NCBI GenBank assembly: GCA_903900705.1 | Contig: CAIUOG010000123.1 | Coordinates: 1 to 54,026, forward strand | Reading direction: 5' to 3' | Source: an uncultured Acidobacteriia bacterium | Lineage (GTDB): Bacteria; Acidobacteriota; Terriglobia; Bryobacterales; Bryobacteraceae | DNA length: 54,026 nt | Shown: positions 7,972 to 51,020 of the stretch, in pieces | Position numbering within the stretch: position 1 is the stretch's first letter | Layout: every line of letters starts with the position of its first letter | The notes under the pieces: generated by a model | Databases searched by the model: none | The model's input: the letters and a program-made list of their open reading frames with translations, nothing else | Told to the model about the DNA's origin: nothing | Program-made: the position numbers and the translations under genes

Positions 7972-8001
7972 CGGTCGCGTGGTTCCTACTACCAGCGACC
8001 G
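7972..8001. promoter_or_regulatory. Inverted repeat in the divergent receptor 1/propeller region
   Basis: CGGTCGCGTGG at 7972-7982 pairs with CCAGCGACCG at 7992-8001 (10 bp with one bulged G, 9-base spacer). It lies near the start of receptor 1 (22 bp upstream of its ATG) and 71 bp upstream of the propeller gene, where an operator serving both divergent genes would be expected. I see no convincing -35/-10 pair around it. Confidence 0.35.
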
Positions 8002-8072
8002 TAATGAATGCAGCCCATTCACAACATTGCTTCCCCGCCGCGTTGGCCTCACGGGCGGATAATGGAGCGAAC

Positions 8073-30885: not shown

Positions 30886-31554
30886 CTAATCTTTCAGCCA
30901 GTCGTCCGCATGTTGTTCGAGGGCTATCCGCACCAGTTGGCTTCTGGTGCGGACGCCCGTCTTATCGAACAACTGCTGTAAAACGGTTTTGACGGAACTC
31001 TCTGAGAGATCCAGCCGGCCGCCGATTTCCTTGTTCGTCAAACCCTCGAATACTGCTTTGAGCACAGCCCGTTCCCGACTGGTGAGAATGTCACCTGGGT
31101 TTTGCGCGTCGGACCGAACGTCTGCTCTGGCTGCGGCACCGGTCACAAGCGACTGGACCGCGCGGGAATCCAGCCACATTTCGCCACTCGCGACTTTATG
31201 GATCGCTTCCACTAATTGGGCGGGGGGACTGTGCTTCAGGAATACCCCGGCCGAGCCATTCTCGAAAGCCCGCAGGGTTCCCAGATCACTGAGCCCGGCG
31301 GTCACCATCAGAATACGGGCGCGAAAGGCGCGGCGTTTGGCCTCTTCGAGCAGGACGGTACCCTGCTCGTTGCCAAGATCGTAATCCAGCAGGACCACAT
31401 CAATCGGCTCACGGGCAAGAACCTCGAGGGAATCCGCGATAGTGGCGCAGGTGGCCGCGATATGGAAGTCAGGCTCCGATTCGAGTAACCGGCTCAGGCT
31501 TTCGCGAAACAGGCTGTGATCGTCCACCAGCAGAATCCGGATCTGCCGCTTCAT
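30886..31554 (-). CDS. LuxR-family (NarL-type) response regulator
   Basis: 222 residues. The receiver domain has the acidic pair D11/D12 (LLVDDH), the phosphorylation site D57 in VVLLDYDLG, a Thr in LMVTAGL and a Lys in FLKHSP. The C-terminal GerE/LuxR helix-turn-helix is TSRERAVLKAVFEGLTNKEI, then SVKTVLQQLFDKTG. The ATG at 31554 has AAGGAAG upstream; a TTG five codons earlier is less likely. It overlaps the kinase gene upstream by 86 bases, so the pair is strictly co-expressed. Target genes are unknown; it is the most economical regulator for the direct repeats in front of its own operon. Confidence 0.92.
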   Translation of the reverse strand: MKRQIRILLVDDHSLFRESLSRLLESEPDFHIAATCATIADSLEVLAREPIDVVLLDYDLGNEQGTVLLEEAKRRAFRARILMVTAGLSDLGTLRAFENGSAGVFLKHSPPAQLVEAIHKVASGEMWLDSRAVQSLVTGAAARADVRSDAQNPGDILTSRERAVLKAVFEGLTNKEIGGRLDLSESSVKTVLQQLFDKTGVRTRSQLVRIALEQHADDWLKD

Positions 31555-32959
31555 AGGCTTCCTTTTCAACAGGGAGATTTACCGGTGTGGCCCGGGCGAG
31601 TTCCACAACAAAACAGGCTCCTTCGGGTTCGGGCTCAAAGCGCAGGTCGCCACGAAACGAGCGCATGAAGGCCCTTGACAGGTACAAACCCAGCCCCGCC
31701 TCCCGCGCCTGTTGCTGGAAAGGCCGGAAGAGACGGTCCGGCGCAGCAACCCCGCAACCGGTATCCCGAAAACGGACGGCGACGCGACGGGCATTGGCTT
31801 CAGCGGAGATGGTCAGTTCCCGCACGGGGCGATCCCGCATGGCCCGCTCACTGTTCCGGGTGAGGTTCAGAAAGACCTGCATCAGGCTTTGCCGGTCTGC
31901 CCATACGGTGGGCAGTGCGGACGGCACGTCCCAGCGAAGATGGATATCCTGTTCGTTCAGTGCCGATTCGACCACGATCCGAAGTTCTTCAAGCACCGAC
32001 GCCAGGTCCAGGCTGGCCACCTGGTCGGTCGTGTTGCGAAGTTCGAGTCCGGCAATTTTCTCGAGCGCGAGGATGAGATTGCCGAGAGCCTCGAAGTCTT
32101 TGTTGCCGTTCAGCCCGCCGGAGCGCGCCAGATTCGCATGAGCCATCGCGATGGCCCCGCAAACATTGCGGATCTCATGAGAGACGGCGGCGACCAGAAT
32201 GCGGGATCCTGCGAGCAGTTGATTCAGTCCGCCTTCTTCACGGCTTCGGAGATCTTCGGAAGTATCCACCACCATGGCGGCAAGGCGAGGGCCGACGCTC
32301 GTCTGATAGGTGGAAAACCAGAGATCGGCAAGAAATACTTCGCCGTTTGCACGGTGCCCCCGGCACTGCATGGCTGTACGCAGCGGCGAATGTTTGGCGT
32401 CCGGCGCCGGGACGTTGCCCAGGGAAGGCAGAAACTCATGCACGGAACGGCCACTGAGTTCTCCCGAGCGCACGGCGAACAGACGATGTGCGGCCTCGTT
32501 CGCGAGCAGGACACGACCGTCAGAAGTTGAAGTAAAAACCGCCGCCGGGCTGCTGTCCACCAGGACCTTCAGCTGCTCTTCGGCCTCCGCGCGGGCGCGA
32601 GCCTCGTGTTCAATCTGTTCCAGATGCTTTTGGGCGAGTTGACGGCTGCGCCCCGCTTCATAAACAAACAACCCCATGCAAACGAAGGCGGCGAAGATGA
32701 GGATATCGCGGGGAATGGCGACCGGTGAGAACCAGTCGAAGCTGTCGAACAGTTCGGTCAGGACAGTGCAGAGGGCGGCTGCAGAGGCGATCTGCCCCCG
32801 GCTCAGAACGGTACCGACGAGCAGCATGGGGAAAAGGTAGAGGAAGCCGAGAGGGATGTTGCCCTCAATTCGCCAGTCCACAATGGCGATGACCATGATC
32901 ATCACGCTGGCGCGGATCAGAACGGCGGTGCGGGTGCCTCGAACCAGAAAAGACAGCAT
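31469..32959 (-). CDS. Membrane-bound PAS sensor histidine kinase
   Basis: 496 residues. The first ~115 residues form about four membrane helices (VMIMVIAIVDW, LGFLYLFPMLLVGTVLS, ILIFAAFVCMGLFVY). A PAS domain follows (about 145-250, VLVDSSPAAVFTSTSDGRVL), then the phosphoacceptor box with His261 (AVSHEIRN), the N box FLNLTRNSERAM, the G1 box RFRDTGCGVA and the G2 box GLGLYLSRAF. It phosphorylates the response regulator encoded by the overlapping downstream gene. No Shine-Dalgarno is visible before the ATG; instead a hairpin (32968-32984) fills the short leader. The input signal is not evident. Confidence 0.92.
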   Translation of the reverse strand: MLSFLVRGTRTAVLIRASVMIMVIAIVDWRIEGNIPLGFLYLFPMLLVGTVLSRGQIASAAALCTVLTELFDSFDWFSPVAIPRDILIFAAFVCMGLFVYEAGRSRQLAQKHLEQIEHEARARAEAEEQLKVLVDSSPAAVFTSTSDGRVLLANEAAHRLFAVRSGELSGRSVHEFLPSLGNVPAPDAKHSPLRTAMQCRGHRANGEVFLADLWFSTYQTSVGPRLAAMVVDTSEDLRSREEGGLNQLLAGSRILVAAVSHEIRNVCGAIAMAHANLARSGGLNGNKDFEALGNLILALEKIAGLELRNTTDQVASLDLASVLEELRIVVESALNEQDIHLRWDVPSALPTVWADRQSLMQVFLNLTRNSERAMRDRPVRELTISAEANARRVAVRFRDTGCGVAAPDRLFRPFQQQAREAGLGLYLSRAFMRSFRGDLRFEPEPEGACFVVELARATPVNLPVEKEAYEAADPDSAGGRSQPVSRKPEPVTRIGA

Positions 32960-32967
32960 GCAGAAGG

Positions 32968-32984
32968 GGGCGCAGGGTGCGCCC
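32968..32984 (-). promoter_or_regulatory. Leader hairpin of the kinase operon
   Basis: Seven-bp stem GGGCGCA/TGCGCCC with a 3-base loop, 8 bases before the kinase ATG. It makes up nearly all of the predicted ~27-base leader, and no ribosome binding site is left outside it. It has no T-run and is not a terminator. Confidence 0.35.
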
Positions 32985-32992
32985 GATGCTTT

Positions 32993-33059
32993 ATTCTATG
33001 CCGCGCGGACGGGCAATTCCGGCAAAGCACCAAAAGATGGCCCGCCTGGCCGAAAGATG
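32993..33059 (-). promoter_or_regulatory. Kinase-operon promoter with GAAAGATG direct repeats
   Basis: On the minus strand TAGAAT (bases 32993-32998) is a good -10; no fair -35 exists at 17 bases. Upstream lie two direct repeats (on the + strand AAAAGATG 33032-33039 and GAAAGATG 33052-33059), 20 bases apart. Their distance to the -10 (33 bases) almost equals that of the repeats at receptor 3 (34 bases), see 40522-40589. This looks like an activator-dependent promoter. Confidence 0.45.
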
Positions 33060-33061
33060 AG

Positions 33062-34744
33062 CTAAGCGGACTCCCGCACGGCGATGTAACGGTCGATGGG
33101 CGGATGGTCCAGTCGCTGGACTTTGCCACTCGGTTTCGGCCAGGTGATTTCGACCCAGTCGATCTTCGGGGAGTTCCCCGCCCCGAGGATCTCGCGGGGA
33201 TCATGGGAGGAAAGGTAACTGCCGCCGCTGTTTTTGAGGCGCGAACGGACGACACCGCCGGCGGACCAGCGAATTTTCGCACCGATTGCGTCGCGGGTGC
33301 AGGTGACGCCTTCCAGTTTCAATCCGAGCCAGTGGTTACCGGCGCCGGCGTTGTTCCTCAGCAGCAGCGGGGGACCGCCGTTATTACCGATCAGGACATC
33401 CAGGCGGCCGTCATTGTTAAAGTCCCCCGCGGCGAGTCCACGCGCCGGCCAGGAATTGTAAAAGGCGGGACCGGCGTCCCTGCTCACATCCCGCAGCTTG
33501 CCATTTTCCTGATGAAAAAGCAGCAGAGGCTCGCGGTATTTCACGGCCGGCGAGTAGAGCTCGATCATGTCGTCCGGGTGACCGTTGGCAAGAATCAGAT
33601 CGACGGACCCGTCGTTATCGTAGTCAAAGAACTTCAGGCCCCAGCCGCTCAGCAGGCGGGTGGATTGCGCGATGCCGTTGGCGTGGGCGACATCGCGAAA
33701 CGTCTCGTCTTTCTGATTGCGGTAGAGAGAGAACATTTCCTGATCGACGTTGGCGACGAAGAGATCCTGATAGCCCGAGTTGAACACGTCGGCCGCGTCC
33801 ACGCCCATGCCCGAGCGGGGCTGTCCCTGCTCGCCGAAGGCGACCTCGGCGGGCAACGCCATTTCCTCGAACTTCCATTTACCGCTGCCTGGCCGGGCCG
33901 CTTTGTCCGGACCGCGGTTCACATAGAGGAAATTCTGCACCGTATCGTTGGCGACGAACAGGTCGAGATTGCCGTCGTTATTGATATCGGTGGCGACGAC
34001 ACCCAGACCCTTGCCGAGGGAGCGGGCGATGTCGGTACCGCCCTCGACCGCCGTGAATGTGCCGTCTCCATTGTTGTGATAGAGAAAGCTGGCGGTGGGT
34101 TTGAAAAAGCGCGGGATGCAGTAATAGCGCTTGCCCAGCTTGTTGTCGCCGCAGGAGACGTGCGCGGATGTGCCGTAGTCGACGAAGCTGCAGACGAACA
34201 GGTCGAGCCGACCGTCGTTGTCGTAGTCGAACCAGACGGCGCTGGTGGTCCAGCCCGGTGTTTCGAGGCCGACCTTCTTCGTTACGTCGGTGAACGTGCC
34301 GTCGTGATTGTTCCTGTACAGGATGCATTTGCCGTAGGCGGTGACGAAAATGTCGGGCCAGCCATCATTGTCGTAATCACCCACAGCCACACCCATGCCG
34401 AAGGTGCCGCCGCTGACGCCGGCCTTTTCGGTGACATCGGTAAACGTCCCGTCGCGATTGTTTTTATAGAGGGCGTTGCGGAGGGGTTTGTCCGGTTTGT
34501 AGAAATCGCAGGGGCCGCTGTTAACCAGGTAGATATCCATCCAGCCATCGTTATCGTAATCGAGAAAAGCCACGCCAGGCCCCAGTGCTTCCGGCAGATA
34601 GTGTTCCGGGGACATGGCGTTCTCGTGAACCCAGGAAATGCCGCTGACTGAGGCCGGAACCTCCTCAAACAGGGGAGGCGCGGCGGCTCCGGGGAGCAAT
34701 TTCGCGGTGGCGAGCGCAAGAATCTGGCGGCGGGACAGCTTCAT
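33062..34744 (-). CDS. FG-GAP/ASPIC-UnbV (CRTAC1-like) protein
   Basis: 560 residues. The N-terminus [20 protein letters not shown] is a Tat-like signal. The body has about seven calcium-binding FG-GAP repeats of the form DYDNDGxxDIxxx (for example [39 protein letters not shown]), making an integrin-like propeller. The C-terminal ASPIC/UnbV domain is seen in [15 protein letters not shown] and [15 protein letters not shown]. Proteins of this class are extracytoplasmic and often lie beside TPR genes. It begins one base after the stop of the cytochrome gene. Function unknown; a surface binding or structural role is likely. Confidence 0.9.
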
Positions 34745-40625: not shown

Positions 40626-41894
40626 TTGAGACTGCAACCGCCCCGCAAATCAGTCCGGCTTTGCGCGGGCCTCGTATTTGCAAGCTTCTCCCCCTTTCAC
40701 GCGCTCGCACAGCAGCCTCTGACGTGGCAGCAGTTGCGGGCGAAGTTTGAAACGGCCAACCCTACACTCAGGGCGGGACAGCTTTCAATTGACGAAGCCC
40801 GTACGATGGAAATCACGGCGTTTCTGCGACCCAATCCGTCGCTGACAACGGCGCTGGATCAGTTGAACCCGTTCACCCCGAATCCGTATCGTCCGCTCGG
40901 TTCGGCCTTTCCGCTGCTCTCAGCCAGCTACCTCCACGAACGCGGGAACAAGCGTGAACTGCGCCTCGAAAGCGCGAAGAAGAACACGGCCATTACGGTC
41001 TCCCAGCAGGAAGATCTGGAACGGAACCTCATCTTCAGCCTGCGGAACGCGTTTGTAATGACGCTGCAGCAAAAGGCGATCCTGCAGGTCACGAAAGACA
41101 ACCTCGCCTACTATGACCGGTTTCTCGCCGTCAGCCAGGAGCGGCTGAAGGCTGGCGACATCGCGCAGGTGGATATGATGCGGCTCGAACTGCAGCGGGT
41201 CCAGTTCGAATCGGATGTGCAGACCGCCGAGGTGAATGTGAGAACCGCGAAGATCCAGTTGCTCAACCTGCTGAATGACCGGACGCCCGTCGAACAATTC
41301 GACGTGACCGGCAACTTCGACTTCGGAGAGAACCTGACTCCACTCGAAGAGTTCCGACAACTGGCCCTGGCGACCCGGCCGGATCTTCGCATTGCCATGC
41401 AGGCGGTGGATAAGGCCCGGACCGATCATGATCTGGCAGTCGCCAACGGTTCCACTGACCCGACCTTTTCCGTAGACTCTGGGCGCAACCCGCCGATTCC
41501 CGCATATGTCGGCTTCAGCATGAACATTCCGCTGCGCATCTTCGACCGAAACCAGGGCGAGAAGGAACGGACGGCGATTGACATCCGGCGGAACCAGCGG
41601 CTGGAGGAGGTGGCCAAAGCACAGGTTTTCAGTGATGTGGACTCTTCCTACGCGGTGCTCAACAGCAGTCTGACGCTGTTGCGACCGTACAAGCAAAAGT
41701 ATCTGGATGAGGCGACCAGGGTGCGGGATACGGTCGCGTTCGCTTACCAGCGTGGAGGCGCTTCCCTGCTCGACTTTCTCAGTGCGGAAAACGATTACCG
41801 GAGCATCCGGCTGAACTATCTCAATCTGGTGGGTTCTTATCTGACGGCGGCGAGCCAGCTGAATCTCGCGGTGGGCCGGGAGGTGATTCAGTGA
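40626..41894 (+). CDS. TolC-family outer-membrane efflux protein (CzcC-like)
   Basis: 422 residues. The in-frame stop at 40620 and the lack of any ATG or GTG before residue 60 leave TTG at 40626 as the start; the AGGA site is unusually close (1 base). A signal peptide follows (LCAGLVFASFSPFHALAQ), then two repeats of the TolC/OEP coiled-coil domain (LTWQQLRAKFETANPTLRAG, and AEVNVRTAKIQLLNLLNDRT). It forms the outer channel of a tripartite efflux pump with the adaptor and RND genes that follow. The adaptor start overlaps its stop (GTGA). Confidence 0.9.
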   Translation: MRLQPPRKSVRLCAGLVFASFSPFHALAQQPLTWQQLRAKFETANPTLRAGQLSIDEARTMEITAFLRPNPSLTTALDQLNPFTPNPYRPLGSAFPLLSASYLHERGNKRELRLESAKKNTAITVSQQEDLERNLIFSLRNAFVMTLQQKAILQVTKDNLAYYDRFLAVSQERLKAGDIAQVDMMRLELQRVQFESDVQTAEVNVRTAKIQLLNLLNDRTPVEQFDVTGNFDFGENLTPLEEFRQLALATRPDLRIAMQAVDKARTDHDLAVANGSTDPTFSVDSGRNPPIPAYVGFSMNIPLRIFDRNQGEKERTAIDIRRNQRLEEVAKAQVFSDVDSSYAVLNSSLTLLRPYKQKYLDEATRVRDTVAFAYQRGGASLLDFLSAENDYRSIRLNYLNLVGSYLTAASQLNLAVGREVIQ

Positions 41895-43030
41895 GGCGAA
41901 CGAGTTTCTGGAAGATGGTATTGTGCGCTGGTCTGGTGCTGGTATCGGCGGCGTGCAGCAAAGAGAAAAAGGCGGACCCGGCGGCGGAAGCGCCCCCGGC
42001 GAACGTCCAGGTTGAGCATACCGGCGATTCGGCCACGGTCAAGGTGGATCATCCCGAGCAATTCCCTGTGGTGGCAGCCGCAAAATACGAGGCTGCGGCG
42101 GAGTTGAATGTGACCGGCACCGTTGCTCCCGACGTGGCTCGGGCAGTACCGGTGATCACGCTGGCTTCGGGCCGCGTGCTCGAAGTACACGCGCGGTTGG
42201 GGGACACGGTCACCAAAGGCCAACTGCTGATGCGGGTGCAAAGCACGGATATTTCGGGCGCATTTTCCGACTACCGTCAGTCACTGGCGGACCAGACACT
42301 GGCGAAGACACAACTGGAACGCGCAAAAATCCTGCTCGACAAGGGCGCGATCGCCCAGAAGGATTACGAACTGGCGGTGAATGCGGCGGACAAGGCCAAC
42401 GTGATGGTGGAAAATCTGCGCGAACGGATTCGCGTGCTGGGCGCGGATATCAACAAGCCTTCCGCGATTGTGGACATCGTGGCTCCGATCACCGGTGTGA
42501 TTACGGATCAGCAGGTGACGGCGGCGGCCGGGGTGCAGGGACTGTCATCCCCCAATCCATTCACGATTTCGGATCTTTCCACCGTCTGGATCATTTGCGA
42601 CGTCTATGAGAACGATCTGAAGAGCGTCCGGCTTGGCGAAACCGCCAGCGTCCGACTGAACGCGTATCCGGATCAGACGTTCACAGGGAAGGTCAGCAAC
42701 ATCGGACCGGTGCTGGACCCGAATCTGCGAACGGCCAAGGTTCGCATTGAGATGAAGAATTCCGGGAATATGCGGGTGGGGATGTTTGTCACGGCGACCT
42801 TCCGGGGTACGGAGAAACAGGTCCACGCCAGCGTGCCGGCAACCGCCGTGTTGCATCTGCATGACCGCGATTGGGTCTACGCGCCGAGTGGCGGGAACAC
42901 TTTCCGGCAGATTGAGGTGAAGGGCGGCCGCATGCTGCCGCCAAATCTGCAGGAGATCCTTTCCGGCATCGCGCCGGGTGACCCTGTGGTGACAAACGCT
43001 CTGGTGCTGCAGAACACTACCTCGCAGTAG
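41891..43030 (+). CDS. RND efflux periplasmic adaptor (CzcB/CusB-like)
   Basis: 379 residues with a lipoprotein-like N-terminus (LVLVSAAC, Cys22). Typical adaptor layout: a biotinyl-lipoyl hairpin (VITLASGRVLEVHARLGDTV), a long alpha-hairpin with DYRQSLADQTLAKTQLERAK, and a beta-barrel domain (TVWIICDVYENDLKSVRLGE). It links the RND pump to the TolC-type channel. It is the only adaptor gene in the cluster although two RND pump genes follow. A 114-base gap, holding a small hairpin (43102-43119), separates it from the first pump, in contrast with the other tightly packed genes. Confidence 0.9.
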   Translation: MRRTSFWKMVLCAGLVLVSAACSKEKKADPAAEAPPANVQVEHTGDSATVKVDHPEQFPVVAAAKYEAAAELNVTGTVAPDVARAVPVITLASGRVLEVHARLGDTVTKGQLLMRVQSTDISGAFSDYRQSLADQTLAKTQLERAKILLDKGAIAQKDYELAVNAADKANVMVENLRERIRVLGADINKPSAIVDIVAPITGVITDQQVTAAAGVQGLSSPNPFTISDLSTVWIICDVYENDLKSVRLGETASVRLNAYPDQTFTGKVSNIGPVLDPNLRTAKVRIEMKNSGNMRVGMFVTATFRGTEKQVHASVPATAVLHLHDRDWVYAPSGGNTFRQIEVKGGRMLPPNLQEILSGIAPGDPVVTNALVLQNTTSQ

Positions 43031-43101
43031 CGAACGGCAGCCCATTCCAAACACAACGCGTGATGGCGAACGGGTTCCCCTGGGGAATGCGCAGGGGCGG
43101 A

Positions 43102-43119
43102 GCCTGCCCGATTGCAGGC
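43102..43119 (+). promoter_or_regulatory. Hairpin between adaptor and first RND pump
   Basis: GCCTGC ccgatt GCAGGC, a 6-bp stem in the 114-base gap before the first RND gene, 26 bases ahead of its ATG. There is no U-run, so it is not a classical terminator. It may mark an RNA-processing point that sets the adaptor-to-pump ratio; that is a guess. Confidence 0.3.
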
Positions 43120-43144
43120 AGCAGAGAGAAGACAGGTCAGATCC

Positions 43145-46100
43145 ATGATTCGCACAGTCGTCGATTTTGCGCTGAACAATCGGTTTATCATCCTTGCCGC
43201 GGCATTACTGCTGCTGGTCTGGGGCGCGATTTCCTTCCATAACCTGCCGGTGGAAGCCTATCCGGATGTGGCTAACAACTACGTGCAGGTGATCACGCAG
43301 TGGCCCGGACGCGCGGCGGAGGAGGTGGAACAGCAGGTGACGATCCCGGTCGAGATTGTGATGAACGGCATCCCGCATCTGGAACACCTGCGGTCGACAT
43401 CACTCTTCGGCCTGTCGAGCGTGACGATGGTTTTCGACGACGAGTCCTCGAATGATGCCAACCGGCAGAAGGTGTTGGAACGGCTCACGACGGTCAGCCT
43501 GCCCACCGGATTGCAGCCTCAGATCGGGTCGGACTTCAGCCCGGTGGGCCAGATTTACTTCTACACGCTGACGAGCACGAATCCACAGTATGACCTGATG
43601 GAACTGAAGCGCCTGGAGGACTGGGTGCTCGAAAAGCAGTTCAAATCCGTGCCGAACGTGGTGGATGTTTCCAGCTTTGGCGGTGTGACGCGGGAATACC
43701 AGGTTCGCCTGGATCCCGACAAGCTGGTCGCCTACGGCCTCAGCCTGGCGCAGGTGGAGCAGCAGCTTGCCGGGAATAACGTGAACGCCGGCGGCAGCTT
43801 TATCGAAGCTGGGTTGCAACAGATCAATGTACGGGAAGTAGGTCTGGTGCGGGATGTGAATGATATCGCCGAGACGGTGATCCGAACGCAGTCCGGAACC
43901 GCTCTGCGCGTTCGCGACATCGCGACTGTGACCCAGGGACCGAAGATCCGGCTGGGCCAGTTTGCGCGGGCTTTGCACCGGGCGGACGGCAGGATTATCG
44001 ACAACAGCGACACCGTTTCGGGGATCGTACTGCTGCGGAAAGGCGCGGAGTCGGACGCCACGCTTGAAGCGATCCACGAAAAGGTGAAGGAACTCAACGA
44101 AAAGATTTTGCCACCGGGCGTAAAGGTCTGGCCATTTCTGGATCGCAGCGAACTGGTGCACTATACGACCCACACGGTGATGCACAACCTGACGGAGGGA
44201 ATTGTGCTGGTGGCGATTATTCTGTTCCTGTTTCTGGGCAACATCCGGGGTGCGCTGATCGTGGCGCTGACGATTCCGTTCTCGCTGCTATTCGCGTCGA
44301 TTTGTCTCGATATCCGCCACATACCGGCGAATCTGCTTTCGCTGGGCGCGCTCGATTTCGGCATGGTGGTGGACGGCGCGGTTGTGATGATTGAAAACAT
44401 TGTCCGTCACATGGGGCGGCACGATCATGGCGGGCCGAAGACGGTGGTGGAGCGAATCCGGGAGGCGGCGCATGAAGTGCAGCGGCCCGTGTTCTACGCC
44501 ATCGGGATCATCATTACCGCGTACCTGCCGATCTTCACTTTGCAGCGCGTGGAGGGCCGGTTGTTCCAGCCCATGGCCTGGACCGTCGCCTTTGCTCTGC
44601 TGGGCGCGCTGCTGTTTTCGATGCTGATTGCGCCGGTGCTGGCCAGTCTGGTGTTCCGCTCCGGCGCTTCGGAATGGCACAATCCGGTGCTGGTGGGGCT
44701 CACGAAGGGTTACCGGGTAGCGGTCCGGGGGGCCATTGAACACCGTTACATTACCGTGGGCTTCGCCCTTCTGTGCATGGGTGGCGCAGGGTATCTGGCG
44801 CTGAGCGGCGTGATCGGCTCCGAATTTCTGCCGCATCTGGATGAAGGCGCGATCTGGGTGCGCGGCACTCTGGCGCCGAGCACCGGGCCCGGCGAAGGAA
44901 TTCGTCTGATGAATCAGGCGCGGGTGGTGTTGGCGGCATTTCCGGAGGTGACCACGGTCACCAGTCAGATCGGGAGACCGGATGACGGGACGGACACCAC
45001 GGGATTTTTCAACACCGAGTATTTTGTGGATCTGAAGCCCAAGGAACAGTGGCGGCCGGTGTTCGGAGAAAACAAAGAAGAACTGATCGCGGCCATGGAC
45101 CGCGAACTGGAAAAGATGCCCGGCGCGCTCTGGAATTTCTCGCAGCCGATCTCGGACAACATGGAAGAGGCCGTCAGCGGTGTGAAGGGCGAACTGGCCG
45201 TTAAGATCTACGGCGATGATCTGAAAGTGCTGGAGGAGAAGGGCGAACGGATAGTCGACGTGATGCGCGCAATCCCCGGGATTCAGGATCTGGGGTTATT
45301 CCGCGTGATCGGGCAGCCGAACCTGAACATTTCCGTGAACCGGAAGGCCGCGGCGCGGTTCGGGATCAACGTGGCGGATGTACAGGACGCGGTACAGACG
45401 GCGATTGGCGGCAACGCCATCACACAGGTATTGCAGGGCGAACAGCGGTACGATCTGGTGGCACGTTACCTGCCGCAGTATCGGGACTCACAGGATGCGA
45501 TTGCGAAGATCCGGCTGGTGGCGCCGTCCGGCGAACGGGTGGCGCTGGCGCAGCTTTGCGATATTCAGGTTTCGGACGGCGCGTCGGAGATCTACCGGGA
45601 GTCGAATTCGCGGTACGTGGCGCTGAAGTACAGCGTGAGGGGACGTGACCTGGGCAGCGCGGTGGAAGAAGCGATTGCCAGGGTCAATAAACAGGTGCAG
45701 CTTCCCCCCGGGTACCACATCGACTGGGCCGGCGAGTATGAGAGCGCGCAACGGTCTCAGCGGCGTCTGGCGATCGTGCTCCCGATCACGCTGCTGGTGA
45801 TTTTCCTGATCCTCTACACGATGTTCAACTCGCTCAAATGGGCGATGCTGATCTTCTGCAATGTGGCGATGGCGCCGCTGGGTGGATTGCTGGCGCTGGT
45901 ACTGACGCATACGCATTTCAGCGTTTCCTCCGGCGTCGGATTCCTCGCGCTGTTTGGCGTCTCGGTGCAGACCGGGGTAATCATGCTGGAGTACATCAAT
46001 CAGCTGCGTGTGCGGGGCCACACGATTGAGGACTCCGCGATTGAAGGCGCGGTGCTGCGTCTGCGTCCTATACTGATGACCTCTTTGGTAGCAACGCTGG

Positions 46101-46282
46101 GCCTGCTGCCGGCTGCCCTTTCGACCGGGATCGGTTCCGATTCGCAGAAACCGTTCGCAATCGTGATTGTGGGCGGATTGATGGCGGCGTTGCTGCTGAG
46201 CATCTTCCTGCTGCCGACGATTTACGTGTGGATAGCGGGCGAAGGGGATGTGTTGCCGCCTGCGGAAGGGGAGTTTGACTGA
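43145..46282 (+). CDS. CusA/CzcA-family RND efflux pump, copy 1
   Basis: 1045 residues, twelve predicted helices with two large periplasmic loops. The proton-relay set is complete: D404, D410 and E417 in LDFGMVVDGAVVMIEN, equal to D402, D408 and E415 of CzcA. The start is at the conserved MIRTVVDFALNNRF; the upstream 11 codons are not typical. The family exports heavy-metal cations or small molecules from periplasm or cytoplasm through the TolC channel. The substrate, perhaps a metal, is not certain. The KDPG-aldolase ATG overlaps the stop by one base. A second, closely similar pump follows at 47224. Confidence 0.95.
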   Translation: MIRTVVDFALNNRFIILAAALLLLVWGAISFHNLPVEAYPDVANNYVQVITQWPGRAAEEVEQQVTIPVEIVMNGIPHLEHLRSTSLFGLSSVTMVFDDESSNDANRQKVLERLTTVSLPTGLQPQIGSDFSPVGQIYFYTLTSTNPQYDLMELKRLEDWVLEKQFKSVPNVVDVSSFGGVTREYQVRLDPDKLVAYGLSLAQVEQQLAGNNVNAGGSFIEAGLQQINVREVGLVRDVNDIAETVIRTQSGTALRVRDIATVTQGPKIRLGQFARALHRADGRIIDNSDTVSGIVLLRKGAESDATLEAIHEKVKELNEKILPPGVKVWPFLDRSELVHYTTHTVMHNLTEGIVLVAIILFLFLGNIRGALIVALTIPFSLLFASICLDIRHIPANLLSLGALDFGMVVDGAVVMIENIVRHMGRHDHGGPKTVVERIREAAHEVQRPVFYAIGIIITAYLPIFTLQRVEGRLFQPMAWTVAFALLGALLFSMLIAPVLASLVFRSGASEWHNPVLVGLTKGYRVAVRGAIEHRYITVGFALLCMGGAGYLALSGVIGSEFLPHLDEGAIWVRGTLAPSTGPGEGIRLMNQARVVLAAFPEVTTVTSQIGRPDDGTDTTGFFNTEYFVDLKPKEQWRPVFGENKEELIAAMDRELEKMPGALWNFSQPISDNMEEAVSGVKGELAVKIYGDDLKVLEEKGERIVDVMRAIPGIQDLGLFRVIGQPNLNISVNRKAAARFGINVADVQDAVQTAIGGNAITQVLQGEQRYDLVARYLPQYRDSQDAIAKIRLVAPSGERVALAQLCDIQVSDGASEIYRESNSRYVALKYSVRGRDLGSAVEEAIARVNKQVQLPPGYHIDWAGEYESAQRSQRRLAIVLPITLLVIFLILYTMFNSLKWAMLIFCNVAMAPLGGLLALVLTHTHFSVSSGVGFLALFGVSVQTGVIMLEYINQLRVRGHTIEDSAIEGAVLRLRPILMTSLVATLGLLPAALSTGIGSDSQKPFAIVIVGGLMAALLLSIFLLPTIYVWIAGEGDVLPPAEGEFD

Positions 46283-46932
46283 TGCGAAAAGAAACGGTCG
46301 CGGCCGCCATCACATCGTCGGGGATGGTACCGGCGATCCGGGTGCCATCCGCTGAAGATGCCGTTTTTGCGGCGACGATTCTGGCCCGGGGCGGAATCAC
46401 GCTGGTGGAACTCACGATGACGGTGCCGGACGGGGTGAGCGTGATAGCCGGCCTTCGACGCAGTCATCCGGATCTGCTGGTGGGCGCGGGGACCGTTCTC
46501 GACGTGGAGACGGCCGAGGCGTGTCTGGATGCCGGCGCCGCCTTCCTCACGAGCCCGGGCTTTGAGCCCGATGTGGTGAGTTTTGCCAACAGCAGAAACG
46601 TGATGGTGATCCCCGGCGTCATGTCTCCGACGGAGGTGATGATGGCATCAAAGGCGGGTGCGGGATTCGTGAAAGTCTTTCCCTGTGCACAGCTGGGCGG
46701 TCCGGGTTACATCCAGGCGTTGCGGCGACCCTTTCCCCATATCCCGATGATCGCTTCAGGGGGCGTCACGCAGCAGACCGCCGGGGAATTCATCCGCGCC
46801 GGAGCGGTGGCGGTGGGAATACGGGAAGAATTGATTCCCTCCGAGGCCGTTGCCCGGCGGGATGAGCACTGGATTCTGGAATTGGCGCACCGCTTTCGTC
46901 TGATCATTGATCGTGCGCGAGGCCGGCAGTAG
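46282..46932 (+). CDS. KDPG/KHG aldolase (2-keto-3-deoxy-6-phosphogluconate type), copy 1
   Basis: 216 residues of the Eda fold. The Schiff-base lysine is K131 in FVKVFPC and the general base is E43 in VELTMTVP, the form seen in Thermotoga-type enzymes; VGAGTV and IASGGV complete the phosphate site. It would cleave 2-keto-3-deoxy-6-phosphogluconate (or 4-hydroxy-2-oxoglutarate) to pyruvate and an aldehyde. It is cytoplasmic. It is read from the pump's message by a 1-base overlap (TGATG), although no Entner-Doudoroff gene is near. Its role in an efflux operon is unclear. Confidence 0.9.
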   Translation: MRKETVAAAITSSGMVPAIRVPSAEDAVFAATILARGGITLVELTMTVPDGVSVIAGLRRSHPDLLVGAGTVLDVETAEACLDAGAAFLTSPGFEPDVVSFANSRNVMVIPGVMSPTEVMMASKAGAGFVKVFPCAQLGGPGYIQALRRPFPHIPMIASGGVTQQTAGEFIRAGAVAVGIREELIPSEAVARRDEHWILELAHRFRLIIDRARGRQ

Positions 46933-46934
46933 AG

Positions 46935-47150
46935 ATGCCGAATTCTGAAGAACAGGCGCGGTTCTATCTGATCCGCGTTGCAGGTTCCTATGAGGTCTGG
47001 GAACTGCGCCGTCGAGACCTTGAGCGCGAACTGAACCTCCACCACGCGCAAAGCATAGTCAGCTTCCGACTGCGGCGTGAGGCTGAGAATGCCCTCCAGG
47101 CGCTCTTCCCCGCCAGACGGAATAGACAGACCCGGGATAATACGCTCTGA
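46935..47150 (+). CDS. Small unrecognised ORF between the two pump modules
   Basis: 71 codons, starting 2 bases after the aldolase stop. The product is charged and helical (ELRRRDLERELNLHHAQSIV, REAENALQALFP) with no recognised domain. There is no good ribosome site, and an antisense frame of similar length exists, so coding is doubtful. If it is not translated, the 291-base stretch 46933-47223 holds only this and the start-site hairpin of the second pump. It may be a relic of the duplication event. Confidence 0.25.
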   Translation: MPNSEEQARFYLIRVAGSYEVWELRRRDLERELNLHHAQSIVSFRLRREAENALQALFPARRNRQTRDNTL

Positions 47151-47183
47151 ACCGCCCAATACCGAATGCGCCTGTGACAAACT

Positions 47184-47221
47184 GAGTGAGCGTCCTCAAT
47201 AACGGAATTTTCGCGTCACTC
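47184..47221 (+). promoter_or_regulatory. Hairpin over the start of the second RND gene
   Basis: GAGTGAGCG (47184-47192) pairs with CGCGTCACTC (47212-47221) through a 9-bp stem with one bulge, ending 2 bases before the ATG at 47224. No Shine-Dalgarno lies between hairpin and ATG; the nearest purine run (CGGA) is in the loop. It could lower translation of the second pump or be an operator. Confidence 0.4.
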
Positions 47222-47223
47222 TT

Positions 47224-50200
47224 ATGATCCGGGCCCTCGTCGACTTTGCTCTTAATAACCGCTTTTTAATTGTGCTGGCAACCACGCTCCTCCTGGTCTG
47301 GGGCGCCATTTCTTTCCACAATCTGCCTGTGGAAGCCTATCCCGACGTGGCGAATAACTACGTGCAGGTGATCACGCAGTGGCCTGGACGCGCCGCGGAG
47401 GAAGTGGAACAGCAGGTGACAACGCCGCTCGAGACCGTGATGAACGGGATCCCGCACCTGGACCATCTTCGTTCGGTCTCGATCTTCGGCCTTTCCAGCC
47501 TGAATCTGATCTTCGACGACGAATCGCTGAACGGAGAAAACAGGCAGAAGGTTCTGGAACGGCTGAGCCAGGTCAATCTGCCCGCCGGATTGCAGCCGCA
47601 GATTGGCTCCGATTACAGCCCGGTGGGCCAGATCTATTTCTACACGCTGCAGAGCAAGAATCCGACCGTCGATCTGATGGCGCTGAAGTCCCTGCAGGAC
47701 TGGGTGATTCTGAAACAGTTCAAGTCCGTCCCGAATGTGGTGGATGTGTCGAGTTTTGGCGGCACCACGCGTGAGTACCAGGTGGCGGTGAATCCCGACA
47801 AGCTGGTTTCTTACGGGCTGACGATCAGCCAGGTGGAGCAGCAACTGGCGAATAACAACATCAACGCCGGCGGAAGCTTTATTGAACAGGGGCTGCAGCA
47901 GATCAATATCCGCGCGGTGGGTCTGGTGCGCGATGTGCACGACATCGAGAAGACGGTCATCAAAACGCAGAATGGCGCGGCGATCCGGGTTCGGGACATC
48001 GCGACGGTGTCGCAGGGAGCGAAGATCCGGCTGGGGAAACTCGGCAAAGCGATCCGCCGGGAAGACGGCCATGTGGTGGATAACGAGGATGTGGTGCAGG
48101 GGTTGGTGCTGCTGCGAAAGGGCGCCGATTCCGACTCCACGCTGATCGGCATTCACGACAAGGTAAAAGAACTGAACGAGCACATCCTGCCGCCCGGCGT
48201 TCGGATTGTGCCGCACCTCGATCGCAGCGAACTACTGGCCTACACGACCCACACGGTGTTGCATAACCTGACGGAAGGCATCATCCTGGTGGCCGTGATC
48301 CTATTCATCTTCCTCGGCAACGTGCGGGGCGCCTTTATCGTGGCCCTCACGATTCCCTTCTCCCTGCTGTTTGCCGCCATCTGTCTGGATTTGAACAAGA
48401 TCCCGGCTAACCTGCTTTCGCTCGGGGCGCTGGATTTCGGCATGGTTGTGGAAGGCGCGGTGGTGATGGTGGAGAACATCATCGGGCACATGGCGCACCG
48501 CCGGGATTCAAGCATTCCTACCATCCGTTCCATACGGGAGGCGGCGCACGAGGTGCAGCGACCGGTCTTCTATTCGATCGGCATCATTATCACCGCGTAT
48601 ATTCCGATCTTCACGCTGCAGCGAGTGGAAGGGCGGCTCTTCAAGCCCATGGCCTGGACGGTGTCTTTTGCGCTCATCGGGGCATTGCTGTTCGCGATGC
48701 TGATCGCGCCGGTACTGAGCAGCTTTCTGTTCCGCAGCACTGTAAAGGAATGGAAGAATCCGCTGGTCACGGCGATGACGTCCGGCTACGGCTGGCTGCT
48801 GCGGCGCGCGATTCACTTCCGCTGGATTACGCTGGCGATCGCCGCGGGTTCATTCGGGGTTTCCGCGTGGCTGCTGACGAGTGGCGCCATCGGGTCAGAG
48901 TTTCTGCCCCACCTCGATGAGGGCGCCATCTGGGCGCGCGCGACGCTGGCGCCGAGTACGGGTCCGGCATCGGGAATCGCGCTGATGGACAAGGCGAGGG
49001 TGATTATTGCCTCGTTCCCGGAGGTCCGGCAGGTGGTTTCGCAGATCGGACGCCCCGACGACGGCACGGATACCACCGGGTTCTTCAACACGGAATATTT
49101 CATCGATCTGAAGCCCAAGGAAGAGTGGCGTCCGGTGTTTGGGGAGAACAAGGAAGAGCTGATTGCCGCCATTGACCGGGAACTCGAAAAGATTCCGGGC
49201 GCACTGTGGAATTTCTCGCAGCCGATTGCCGACAACATGGAAGAAGCGGTCAGCGGGGTGAAGGGGCAGCTCGCCATCAAGATTTACGGTGACGACCTGG
49301 GCACGCTGGAGGCGAAGGGCGCGGAGATCGTCAACGTGATGCGGACCATCAAGGGTGTGGCCGATCTGGGGCTGTTCCGGGTAATCGGGCAGCCGAATCT
49401 GCAGTTCGAAGTGGACCGCGACAAGGCCGCGCGCTATGGCATGAATGTGACGGACGTGCAGGATGCCATTGAGACCGCTGTGGGCGGCAAGGCCGTGTCC
49501 CAGGTACTGCAGGGCGAACAGCGCTACGATCTGGTGGTCCGTTATGACACGCCCTACCGAAGCACAAAAGAGACGATTGAAAGCATCCGGCTGCTGACGC
49601 CCGCGGGAGAGCGGGTTGCCCTGTCACAGCTCTGCAATGTCAAAGTGCTGGATGGCGCATCCGAAATTTATCGTGAGGGCAATTCGCGCTATGTGGCGCT
49701 GAAGTACAGCGTGGAAGGGCGCGATCTGGGCAGCACCGTGGAAGAAGCGATTGCGAAGGTGGGTAAAGAGGTCAAGCTTCCTGTTGGCTACAAAGTCGAT
49801 TGGGCGGGCGAATACGAGAGCGCCAAACGGTCGCAGCGGCGGCTGATGATCGTGGTGCCGATCACGCTGCTGGTGATCTGTATGATCCTCTACACCATGT
49901 TTAATTCGGTGAAGTGGGTGATGCTGATTGTGGCGAACGTGGCGATGGCGCCGCTTGGAGGTTTACTTGCTCTGCTGTTCACCGGGACGCACATGAGCGT
50001 GTCATCGGGAGTTGGCTTTCTGGCGTTGTTCGGGGTTTCGGTGCAGACAGGCGTGATCATGCTGGAATACATCAATCAGTTACGGGCGCGCGGCGAACCG
50101 ATTCTCGAAGCGGCCATCGATGGTTCGGTGAAACGCCTGCGACCGATCATGATGACGATGCTGGTGGCGAGCGTCGGTCTGCTACCGGCCGCGCTTTCGC

Positions 50201-50358
50201 GCGGCATCGGCTCGGATTCGCAGAGGCCATTCGCTATTGTGATTGTCGGAGGCCTTGTAGCCGCACTGATTCTGGGGGTGTTCCTGCTGCCAACGTTGTA
50301 CGTCTGGGTGGCCCGGGACAGTGATGTTCTGCCGGCTCCGGAAGGAGAGATCGAATAG
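47224..50358 (+). CDS. CusA/CzcA-family RND efflux pump, copy 2
   Basis: 1044 residues, a close paralogue of the pump at 43145: residues 22-66 are identical in both and nearly all motifs align without gaps. The relay set here is D404, E410 and E417 (LDFGMVVEGAVVMVEN), so the middle aspartate is Glu. It has no adaptor of its own and presumably shares the upstream adaptor and TolC. The gene begins right after a hairpin and lacks a clear ribosome site. Its message runs into a second KDPG aldolase, 2 bases downstream. Confidence 0.95.
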   Translation: MIRALVDFALNNRFLIVLATTLLLVWGAISFHNLPVEAYPDVANNYVQVITQWPGRAAEEVEQQVTTPLETVMNGIPHLDHLRSVSIFGLSSLNLIFDDESLNGENRQKVLERLSQVNLPAGLQPQIGSDYSPVGQIYFYTLQSKNPTVDLMALKSLQDWVILKQFKSVPNVVDVSSFGGTTREYQVAVNPDKLVSYGLTISQVEQQLANNNINAGGSFIEQGLQQINIRAVGLVRDVHDIEKTVIKTQNGAAIRVRDIATVSQGAKIRLGKLGKAIRREDGHVVDNEDVVQGLVLLRKGADSDSTLIGIHDKVKELNEHILPPGVRIVPHLDRSELLAYTTHTVLHNLTEGIILVAVILFIFLGNVRGAFIVALTIPFSLLFAAICLDLNKIPANLLSLGALDFGMVVEGAVVMVENIIGHMAHRRDSSIPTIRSIREAAHEVQRPVFYSIGIIITAYIPIFTLQRVEGRLFKPMAWTVSFALIGALLFAMLIAPVLSSFLFRSTVKEWKNPLVTAMTSGYGWLLRRAIHFRWITLAIAAGSFGVSAWLLTSGAIGSEFLPHLDEGAIWARATLAPSTGPASGIALMDKARVIIASFPEVRQVVSQIGRPDDGTDTTGFFNTEYFIDLKPKEEWRPVFGENKEELIAAIDRELEKIPGALWNFSQPIADNMEEAVSGVKGQLAIKIYGDDLGTLEAKGAEIVNVMRTIKGVADLGLFRVIGQPNLQFEVDRDKAARYGMNVTDVQDAIETAVGGKAVSQVLQGEQRYDLVVRYDTPYRSTKETIESIRLLTPAGERVALSQLCNVKVLDGASEIYREGNSRYVALKYSVEGRDLGSTVEEAIAKVGKEVKLPVGYKVDWAGEYESAKRSQRRLMIVVPITLLVICMILYTMFNSVKWVMLIVANVAMAPLGGLLALLFTGTHMSVSSGVGFLALFGVSVQTGVIMLEYINQLRARGEPILEAAIDGSVKRLRPIMMTMLVASVGLLPAALSRGIGSDSQRPFAIVIVGGLVAALILGVFLLPTLYVWVARDSDVLPAPEGEIE

Positions 50359-50360
50359 AA

Positions 50361-51020
50361 ATGACCCGGGAGGCAGTGCGGGCGGCAATAGAACAGACCG
50401 GTATTGTTCCGGCCATCCGGACCGGGAGCGCGGCCGACGCGCTCTTTGCGGCGGAGACCGTTTTCGCCGGTGGCTTACACATCCTGGAACTGACCATGAC
50501 GGTGCCTGGAGCGCTGGAGGTGATTGCGCAACTGCGTCGTACGCATCCGGGACTTCTGGTTGGGGCGGGCACGGTGCTGGATGCTGATACCGCGGAAGCG
50601 TGTCTTGATGCCGGAGCCGCGTTTCTGACGAGCCCCGGTTTCGAACCCGGTGTGCTGGAAGTGGGGTTGCGGAGAAAAATCGCCGTCATTCCGGGTGTGC
50701 TGACACCCACGGAAGTAATGATGGCTTCGAAAGCCGGCGCAGACTTTGTGAAGGTGTTTCCGTGCTCGGCGGTCGGCGGTCCGAGCTACATCAAAGCGCT
50801 GCGTGCGCCGTTCCCCCATATCGCGATGATTGCGTCCGGAGGCGTCACACAACACACGGCCGGTGATTTCATTCGTGCGGGCGCGGTGGCATTGGGGATT
50901 CGTGAGGAACTGATCCCACCGGAGGCGGTGATCAATCGCGATCACCAATGGATCGGGGAACTCACGAACCGATTTCAAACGATTGTAAAGCGGGCCAGGA
51001 CGCCAAGGGCGGGCAGCTGA
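50361..51020 (+). CDS. KDPG/KHG aldolase, copy 2
   Basis: 219 residues, the paralogue of the aldolase at 46282. The catalytic residues E43 (ILELTMTVP) and K131 (FVKVFPC) and the VGAGTV motif are all kept, so both copies look active. AAGGAGA lies 14 bases before the ATG. It ends the rightward efflux cluster. The pairing of a pump with an aldolase is therefore repeated twice in a row, which argues against chance placement. A GC-rich hairpin spans its stop codon. Confidence 0.9.
   Translation: MTREAVRAAIEQTGIVPAIRTGSAADALFAAETVFAGGLHILELTMTVPGALEVIAQLRRTHPGLLVGAGTVLDADTAEACLDAGAAFLTSPGFEPGVLEVGLRRKIAVIPGVLTPTEVMMASKAGADFVKVFPCSAVGGPSYIKALRAPFPHIAMIASGGVTQHTAGDFIRAGAVALGIREELIPPEAVINRDHQWIGELTNRFQTIVKRARTPRAGS

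Follow-up and report, generated by a model that had tools for sequence, protein, structure and literature searches.

Why should genes for a KDPG aldolase sit immediately behind genes for heavy-metal-type RND pumps, twice in succession, in an operon with a single adaptor? The question is raised by contig CAIUOG010000123.1 of an uncultured Acidobacteriia bacterium (assembly GCA_903900705.1), of which we analysed a stretch of 54,026 nucleotides, hereafter the window.

An RND operon with two pump-aldolase pairs

The operon has the gene order channel, adaptor, pump1-eda1, pump2-eda2, with the following features:

40626..41894, + strand: OEP/TolC-type outer-membrane channel (PF02321, E 1.4e-37)
41891..43030, + strand: sole periplasmic adaptor, RND_mfp, CzcB-like (PF16576 and TIGR01730 over cut-off; TIGR00999 below cut-off)
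43145..46282, + strand: pump1, CusA/CzcA-family RND transporter, TM4 motif DFGMVVDGAVVMIEN (TIGR00914, 964.8 bits)
46282..46932, + strand: eda1, KDPG-aldolase-like, AxGG clade (TIGR01182, 176.8 bits; residues; trees)
46933..47223, no strand: eda1-pump2 gap of 291 bases (six-frame hmmsearch; blastn)
47224..50358, + strand: pump2, CusA/CzcA-family RND transporter, TM4 motif DFGMVVEGAVVMVEN (TIGR00914, 955 bits)
50361..51020, + strand: eda2, KDPG-aldolase-like, AxGG clade (TIGR01182, 179.4 bits; predicted structure)

A first-pass annotation, made from the sequence without database searches, had described TolC-type and adaptor genes followed by two pump-aldolase pairs. Open reading frames and profile searches bear out this arrangement and its exact spacing, with an overlap of 1 base between pump1 and eda1 and a gap of 2 bases between pump2 and eda2. 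Searches of the gap between eda1 and pump2 turned up no leftover of an adaptor or channel: a six-frame hmmsearch with four operon profiles gave a best E no better than 0.25, and blastn against the loci fetched by that stage returned only the gap's own copies. A promoter and terminator scan found no more sites than in shuffled sequences.

Both pumps score well above the TIGR00914 cut-off (701.45 bits) and thus belong to the HME-RND family. Their best match among solved structures is ZneA (782 bits), followed by CusA (599 bits). The methionine triad of CusA (M573-M623-M672), whose role is described in an excerpt of PMC8092243, is missing from pump1 and pump2 and is replaced by R, N and E in 12/12 aligned pumps including these two. 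A CusA-type Cu(I)/Ag(I) exporter was rejected on this ground, and a copper or silver substrate is therefore unlikely.

The aldolases keep their catalytic residues and change the acceptor side

The two aldolases are 68-69% identical, exceed the TIGR01182 cut-off (156.05 bits) and score 136.2 (eda1) and 151.3 (eda2) bits against PF01081 (cut-off 27.8). The predicted structure of eda2 is an alpha/beta barrel of the class I aldolase type (mean pLDDT 96.6). E43 and K131, singled out in the first-pass annotation, are present in both proteins; in E. coli numbering, Glu45 and Lys133 are kept. We take these two residues to be catalytic and Lys133 to form the Schiff base. In place of the PT161GG acceptor/phosphoryl loop both proteins read A-S-G-G, with A-S at positions 160-161, and positions 183-184 are R-E. 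According to an excerpt of PMC3962226, changes at 161 and 184 shift E. coli Eda towards non-phosphorylated substrates; excerpts of PMC4012138, PMC8092243 and PMC8277102 provided further background.

A distinct aldolase clade recurs in RND operons

A tree that retained the motif columns was built from 136 distinct aldolases of the Acidobacteriota loci retrieved. A single branch (support 99) separates 97 sequences with an AxGG loop from 39 with PTGG. All 75 RND-linked copies fall inside the AxGG clade, which also holds 18 unlinked copies and 4 at contig edges; the corresponding PTGG counts are 0, 34 and 5 (Fisher p 4.8e-18 with the nine contig-edge rows left out, the rows not being independent). 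A copy was called linked if a profile for an OEP, an adaptor or an RND gene matched within 1.5 kb; two copies at 1.6-1.7 kb were also counted as linked, and one PTGG copy (L236), whose weak channel/adaptor match is 4 kb away, was scored as unlinked.

The sample had several sources. Sixty aldolase regions were picked by identity to eda2, and 20 regions served as low-identity controls. The 80 named loci were retrieved with a profile built on linked aldolases, a choice that can push up the proportion of linked copies. In the subset chosen by eda2 identity alone (the 60 regions and the window), linked/unlinked/edge counts are 38/10/1 for AxGG and 0/12/1 for PTGG. A further 40 pump regions were deliberately taken from contigs without a listed aldolase, so that their lack of one is by choice; that so many close pumps do without nevertheless indicates that the pump does not need the aldolase.

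Most AxGG copies close an RND operon at its 3' end: a channel, adaptor or pump gene precedes 70 of the linked 75 on the same strand, and 68 of those 70 have no such gene downstream. Linked aldolases occur in at least 33 genomes besides that of the window, spanning at least 12 genera and at least four families, in a class search that drew 299 genomes (including the window's); the counts are lower bounds because only part of the matches was fetched. Pump partners differ among them. The same tail gene appears in three operon orders and beside pumps of a deep, separate branch (L113, L123), and partners have been exchanged: the pump of L201 is 91% like that of L121, and its aldolase is 95% like that of L112 and 73% like that of L121. 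Chance adjacency was rejected because the linkage recurs across genera and families. The first-pass annotation had read the doubled aldolase as a sign of a real pump-aldolase link and had proposed a genome search for such pairs. That search extends the pairing beyond the window, across genera, families and pump partners, and suggests an unrecognised enzyme-pump partnership.

The residue changes seen in the window run through the clade. The canonical Pro160 is replaced in 97/97 AxGG sequences (by Ala in 96) and Thr161 in 90/97, the remaining seven keeping it; P160 and T161 are both present in 39/39 PTGG sequences. Among the 73 AxGG copies linked within 1.5 kb, all have A160 and 67 have A, S or G at 161. 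Position 184 is mostly R, G, S, T, K or E. Since Glu45 is kept in 97/97 and Lys133 in 96/97, the aldolase chemistry is probably preserved; a change in the acceptor pocket, judged from these alignments, is likewise probable. R or K at 184 in 35/97 sequences could bind an anion, and this, with the T161 kept in seven, leaves a non-phosphorylated substrate short of proof.

Genomic neighbourhoods also separate the clades. A PfkB-kinase-like family lies within 6.5 kb of 25/39 PTGG copies and of 0/97 AxGG copies, a comparison weakened, as are other statements of missing neighbours, by the 26/97 AxGG copies with less than 3 kb on one side. Neighbour families are single-linkage BLAST clusters named by Pfam from 1-3 members (the PfkB-like one from a single member). 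The sugar-acid neighbourhood (a PfkB-type kinase and the like), which is usual for KDPG aldolases rather than strictly defining, was thus not found for AxGG. The window's own 6.1-Mb genome (G000) keeps one other PF01081 gene, of PTGG type, on contig C25, where none of the listed RND matches falls, and has 11 PfkB-family and 5 IlvD/Edd-family matches.

These data bear on whether eda1 and eda2 are ordinary KDPG/KHG aldolases that stand beside pumps by inherited gene order, with no functional tie. Their profile scores and fold are those of a plain KDPG aldolase, gene order can last by descent, and the 18 AxGG copies with readable flanks and no RND gene nearby count for this explanation and against the tie that we favour. 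We nonetheless consider it unlikely: the genome has another, PTGG aldolase, AxGG copies were not seen near the PfkB-like family, the linkage holds across four families, three operon orders and changes of pump, and acceptor-side residues are altered clade-wide.

Searches beyond the class place the clade in context. A phylum-wide search covered 297 genomes, 86 with a match; among the best 30 matches, which were located, the sole AxGG locus is that of the window. The other 29, of which 14 belong to other classes, are PTGG, and their short flanks contain no RND gene. The best 80 of at least 516 aldolase relatives in genome contigs are all titled Acidobacteriota except one titled Betaproteobacteria, on a contig exactly as long as C126 of genome G253. 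The AxGG sequences form a paralogous clade of their own within the class I pyruvate aldolases, one that, among the matches listed, has so far been seen only in Acidobacteriota. Viral carriage was discarded: none of the 11 pattern matches from a scan of viral contigs with eda2 was a relative. A literature search, with subscription papers mostly outside its reach, found no pump-linked aldolase.

Pumps and aldolases have conflicting histories

The locus had been annotated as a tandem duplication of one pump-aldolase module, both copies presumably diverging later. Gene order is the same in both pairs, spacing is tight, and identity is high (75% between the pumps). Moreover, codons at identical residues are shared more often in the pumps (0.55) than in the aldolases (0.36). 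Pump residues 22-66 are indeed the same in both pumps (45/45), as the first-pass annotation pointed out. This segment is conserved across the whole family, with a mean identity to pump2 of 0.84 across the 97 pumps compared (28th of 1000 such segments) and a 45/45 match in 4/97 pumps, counting pump1 and pump2; its identity is therefore no sign of recent duplication, and recent gene conversion there was rejected.

The trees point away from a joint duplication. Pump2, which is 92% identical to the L083 pump of another genome, G133, falls in a seven-member clade with pumps of other genera (100/100), and pump1 lies outside it, grouping with L260, a G133 pump without an aldolase gene (with support of just 83/82 in the careful tree). 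A topology constrained to unite pump1, pump2 and the G133 pump was rejected (AU p 6e-55). The aldolases show the opposite: eda1 and eda2 share a clade with the G133 aldolase (100/98), and keeping eda1 outside the group of eda2, L083, L086 and L084 was rejected (p 0.003). Both constrained groups were defined with an earlier tree already in view, and the wide pump tree is from FastTree only, with RND pieces under 850 residues left out. The adaptor groups with that of L083, its nearest match (76%, support 100), from the G133 operon in which the relatives of pump2 and eda2 lie. Over 52 loci, pump and aldolase divergence are only moderately correlated (Mantel r 0.36).

The pumps are thus old paralogues, and the common ancestor of the aldolases is more recent. 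Comparing the two trees, as the first-pass annotation had suggested, leaves its single-event duplication of the whole module unsupported, with the adaptor following the pump2 lineage; we regard such an event as already strongly disfavoured and very improbable. Instead, a pump1-eda1 cassette probably joined an operon that consisted of channel, adaptor, pump2 and eda2.

Two pumps behind one adaptor

Might the pumps form one mixed trimer on the lone adaptor, as in the E. coli MdtBC heterotrimer (excerpt of PMC8277102), with the aldolases as passengers? The layout of one adaptor and two pump genes in one apparent operon resembles that system, and at the position of the CusA proton-relay residue D405 pump2 aligns a Glu and pump1 an Asp, an asymmetry of the sort that divided labour might produce. 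The same Glu, however, is found in the pump2 relatives L083, L084 and L086, each the sole pump in the stretch fetched, and therefore need not reflect partnership. L260, nearest to pump1, likewise has no second pump in 15 kb. A partner thus does not seem obligatory for either lineage, and we rate a mixed trimer as quite unlikely.

A proposed role for the aldolase

Taking the evidence together, the reading that we favour, at somewhat better than even odds, is that the locus is an HME-type tripartite RND operon with an inserted pump-aldolase cassette, in which the altered aldolase would be tied to the pump. The enzyme would still form or cleave a C-C bond by way of a Schiff base with pyruvate, with a partner aldehyde other than the phosphorylated Entner-Doudoroff sugar. 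Its reaction may be coupled to export by making or removing an exported 2-keto acid; alternatively, pyruvate could be added to a toxic aldehyde, enabling its export. Pump1 and pump2 would then form two homotrimers with one adaptor and one channel in common, each with its own aldolase. The first-pass annotation had proposed that pyruvate or keto-acid metabolism feeds the exported compound. The kept catalytic residues fit this idea, but the altered acceptor pocket speaks against a routine role in KDPG metabolism.

More doubtful, though still worth stating, is a broader version of this proposal: that in this lineage RND exporters have a dedicated KDPG-aldolase paralogue that adds pyruvate to, or removes it from, a non-sugar, non-phosphorylated carbonyl, the 4-hydroxy-2-keto acid or product being the cargo. 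The system would then export aldehydes or keto acids after handling them enzymatically; a tail enzyme swapped between operons would set the chemistry, and the HME-type pump would carry a non-metal substrate.

The aldolase could instead guard against pump-related metal or oxidative stress by supplying pyruvate, whatever the acceptor. The pumps belong to a heavy-metal family, the class I catalytic residues are kept and pyruvate is a peroxide scavenger. Cells have many sources of pyruvate, however, and the absence of the CusA triad makes copper or silver an unlikely substrate, and the change in the pocket would be left unexplained. We find this explanation rather improbable.

If the AxGG clade is tied to RND operons and has an altered acceptor pocket, the names heavy-metal exporter and Entner-Doudoroff aldolase, which come from the family models, are probably misleading in these soil bacteria, and the aldolase would offer a direct, assayable handle on pump cargo. 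Enzyme engineers have targeted the very positions, 161 and 184, at which the clade is naturally substituted, so the clade may also offer ready-made pyruvate aldolases of different specificity.

Comparison with known systems

Compared with Eda of E. coli K-12 (b1850) and Thermotoga maritima (1WA3/1VLW), the window enzymes differ at P160-T161 and at 183-184, and they reside in an RND operon rather than in a sugar-acid gene group. The engineered E. coli variants T161S, S184F and T161S/S184L, described in an excerpt of PMC3962226, are altered at the same two acceptor-site positions, and their Ser161 is the residue of eda1 and eda2 too; AxGG sequences, as aligned, additionally lack P160 and carry mostly the residues listed above at 184.

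Among pumps, ZneCAB/CzcCBA and CusCBA share the TIGR00914 family with pump1 and pump2; the window operon differs in its extra aldolase gene and in pumps without the CusA triad. The MdtABC operon places two pump genes behind one adaptor, as the window operon does. Unlike MdtABC, however, the window pumps are HME rather than HAE-1, the relatives of each pump occur singly, and aldolases are present.

A tandem pump–aldolase operon

The operon lies in the window at 40626-51020, all on the + strand, and comprises a channel gene (OEP), a single adaptor gene (MFP) and two pump–aldolase pairs in the following order:

40626-51020, + strand: whole operon, opening with the OEP channel and the adaptor
43145-46282, + strand: RND pump (pump1)
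46282-46932, + strand: KDPG aldolase-like protein (eda1)
47224-50358, + strand: RND pump (pump2)
50361-51020, + strand: KDPG aldolase-like protein (eda2)
Upstream of the channel gene, divergent: gene for a large outer-membrane barrel protein bearing a carboxypeptidase-regulatory domain
Downstream of the operon, convergent: transpeptidase-domain gene and SDR gene

Re-checking reproduced the gene coordinates and overlaps, the pump residues identical in both copies and the catalytic residues, as reported in the first-pass annotation. The pump-linked pair is not the sole aldolase of the window's 6.1 Mb genome, because a third copy, with the canonical PTGG motif, is kept on contig C25. Two pump–aldolase pairs in tandem were found only in the window among 201 stretches mapped. 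Some 6-9 kb upstream of the operon, a PAS histidine kinase adjoins an FG-GAP/UnbV_ASPIC protein (31472-34744), and these protein types also adjoin other RND–aldolase operons.

Distribution of the pump–aldolase linkage

The search set was 299 genomes of the class, with the genome of the window among them; eda2 found matches in 217 (E 1e-15) and pump2 in 241 (E 1e-180). Fetched regions comprised 60 aldolase, 20 distant-aldolase control and 40 pump regions, plus the best 80 of at least 516 loci from a genome_contigs scan with a profile of linked aldolases; all but one of the window aldolase relatives among these 80 were from Acidobacteriota MAGs, many of them labelled Terriglobia, Bryobacterales or Acidobacteriaceae. 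Removing copies left 136 distinct aldolases, of which 73 had an RND-operon gene within 1.5 kb, three lay further away from one, 51 had none nearby and nine stood at contig edges. The pairing is widespread, with linked aldolases in at least 33 of the 298 class genomes besides the window's own, spanning 12 genera and four family codes.

With two copies at 1.6-1.7 kb counted in, 75 aldolases are linked. Seventy of them lie on the same strand and 3' of a channel, adaptor or pump gene, 68 of these with no such gene downstream, which in most cases makes the aldolase the tail gene; five lie on the opposite strand. Three operon orders were seen: OEP-MFP-RND-EDA; MFP-RND-OEP-EDA, in which 16 linked copies have a BBP2 porin family nearby; and MFP-RND-small protein-OEP-EDA, whose pump occupies a deep separate branch. 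The spacer protein of the third order (~185-200 residues; locus L113, 3908-4465) has relatives in L115, L123 and L137, and the L113 member had no Pfam match. Exceptions include an aldolase between adaptor and pump (L217) and divergent aldolases (L091, L097, L162). Loci L096/L165 and L180 read channel-adaptor-aldolase with no pump within the stretch fetched, the aldolase occupying the pump's place; the L096/L165 contig stops 1.1 kb past it. Two convergent aldolases of the clade with an altered acceptor motif (AxGG) stand beside a single RND pump at a Bryobacteraceae MAG contig end (L145, 4384-5803), and L204 has a similar pair.

Neighbourhoods of AxGG and PTGG aldolases

Neighbour families were scored within 6.5 kb of the aldolase, at least 3 kb being available on each side for 71 of 97 AxGG and 30 of 39 PTGG rows. 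PfkB-like and SDR-like families, each named from one member, accompany 25 of the 39 PTGG copies and none of the AxGG ones; 14 PTGG copies and one AxGG copy have an MFS family close by, and 11 PTGG copies a KduI-like one. AxGG copies are flanked by RND genes, by BBP2 porins (16 linked copies, two others), by a family of 243-residue proteins (10 linked, two others) and by an FG-GAP family (nine linked). A further cluster, of mixed content and with DUF4118 histidine kinases among its members, lies near 15 linked and three other AxGG copies and four PTGG copies, and so is not specific.

In one AxGG protein (locus L118, 6124-6798, genome G149) Arg replaces the Schiff-base Lys (FLRVFPC), and the protein is therefore probably no longer an aldolase; no RND gene is present near it in the stretch fetched.

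Histories of the pumps and aldolases

The first-pass annotation had read the module as duplicated as one, a view that the disagreement between the pump and aldolase trees speaks strongly against. A careful tree of 31 pumps places pump2 in a clade of seven rows (100/100), together with pumps from genomes G133, G210, G145, G043, G149 and G296, and leaves pump1 outside it, grouped weakly with the L260 pump of G133 (83/82). The aldolases eda1 and eda2 form one clade with a G133 aldolase (100/98). A tree constrained to unite pump1, pump2 and the pump of G133 is worse by 131 log units (p 6e-55), and one joining eda2 with the G133, G145 and G149 copies to the exclusion of eda1 is rejected (p 0.003), though both constrained groups were chosen after viewing earlier trees and the p values take no account of that choice. 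The window adaptor groups with that of G133 (76% identity, support 100), whose operon reads OEP-MFP-pump2-eda2; the channel gene groups ambiguously. Most simply, an OEP-MFP-pump2-eda2 operon would have gained pump1, with the second aldolase copy arriving alongside it or afterwards.

This history fits a wider habit of loose pairing, as aldolase identity follows pump identity to a moderate degree only across 52 linked loci (r 0.36; 0 of 999 permutations as high) and locus L201 combines an aldolase (8001-8645) 95% like that of L112 and 73% like that of L121 with an adaptor, pump and channel 85, 91 and 80% like those of L121, an apparent exchange of the tail aldolase. On a 99-row FastTree pump tree the aldolase switches between present and absent 19 times; supported branches force no fewer than 14 of these switches, though linked and unlinked loci had reached the analysis by different routes.

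Proposed pump assembly and function

Within the stretches fetched, relatives of both pumps are found without a partner pump, so two homotrimers on a shared adaptor seem preferable to the mixed trimer also proposed at first pass. Elsewhere, locus L263 (2219-8889, genome G116) has a tandem RND pump pair behind one adaptor and no aldolase anywhere in its contig.

Although the family is annotated as heavy-metal, the window pumps lack the Cu/Ag methionine triad. At the proton-relay position equivalent to CusA D405, Glu stands in for Asp (DFGMVVEGA) in a clade that includes pump2 (in TM4), L083, L084, L086 and L243-L245, and also outside it in L150, L269 and L274.

On the favoured reading, the aldolase, probably cytoplasmic, would apply pyruvate chemistry to the compound exported by the pump, or to one whose export follows; the anatomy, clade, linkage, residues and histories are observed, and the substrate, reaction direction and enzyme–pump coupling are inferred. 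The literature searched, mostly papers free of subscription, yielded no report of a pump–aldolase link. The fold, family and pump type are already known; what appears to be new is a clade of aldolases that is tied to RND operons and has an altered acceptor site.
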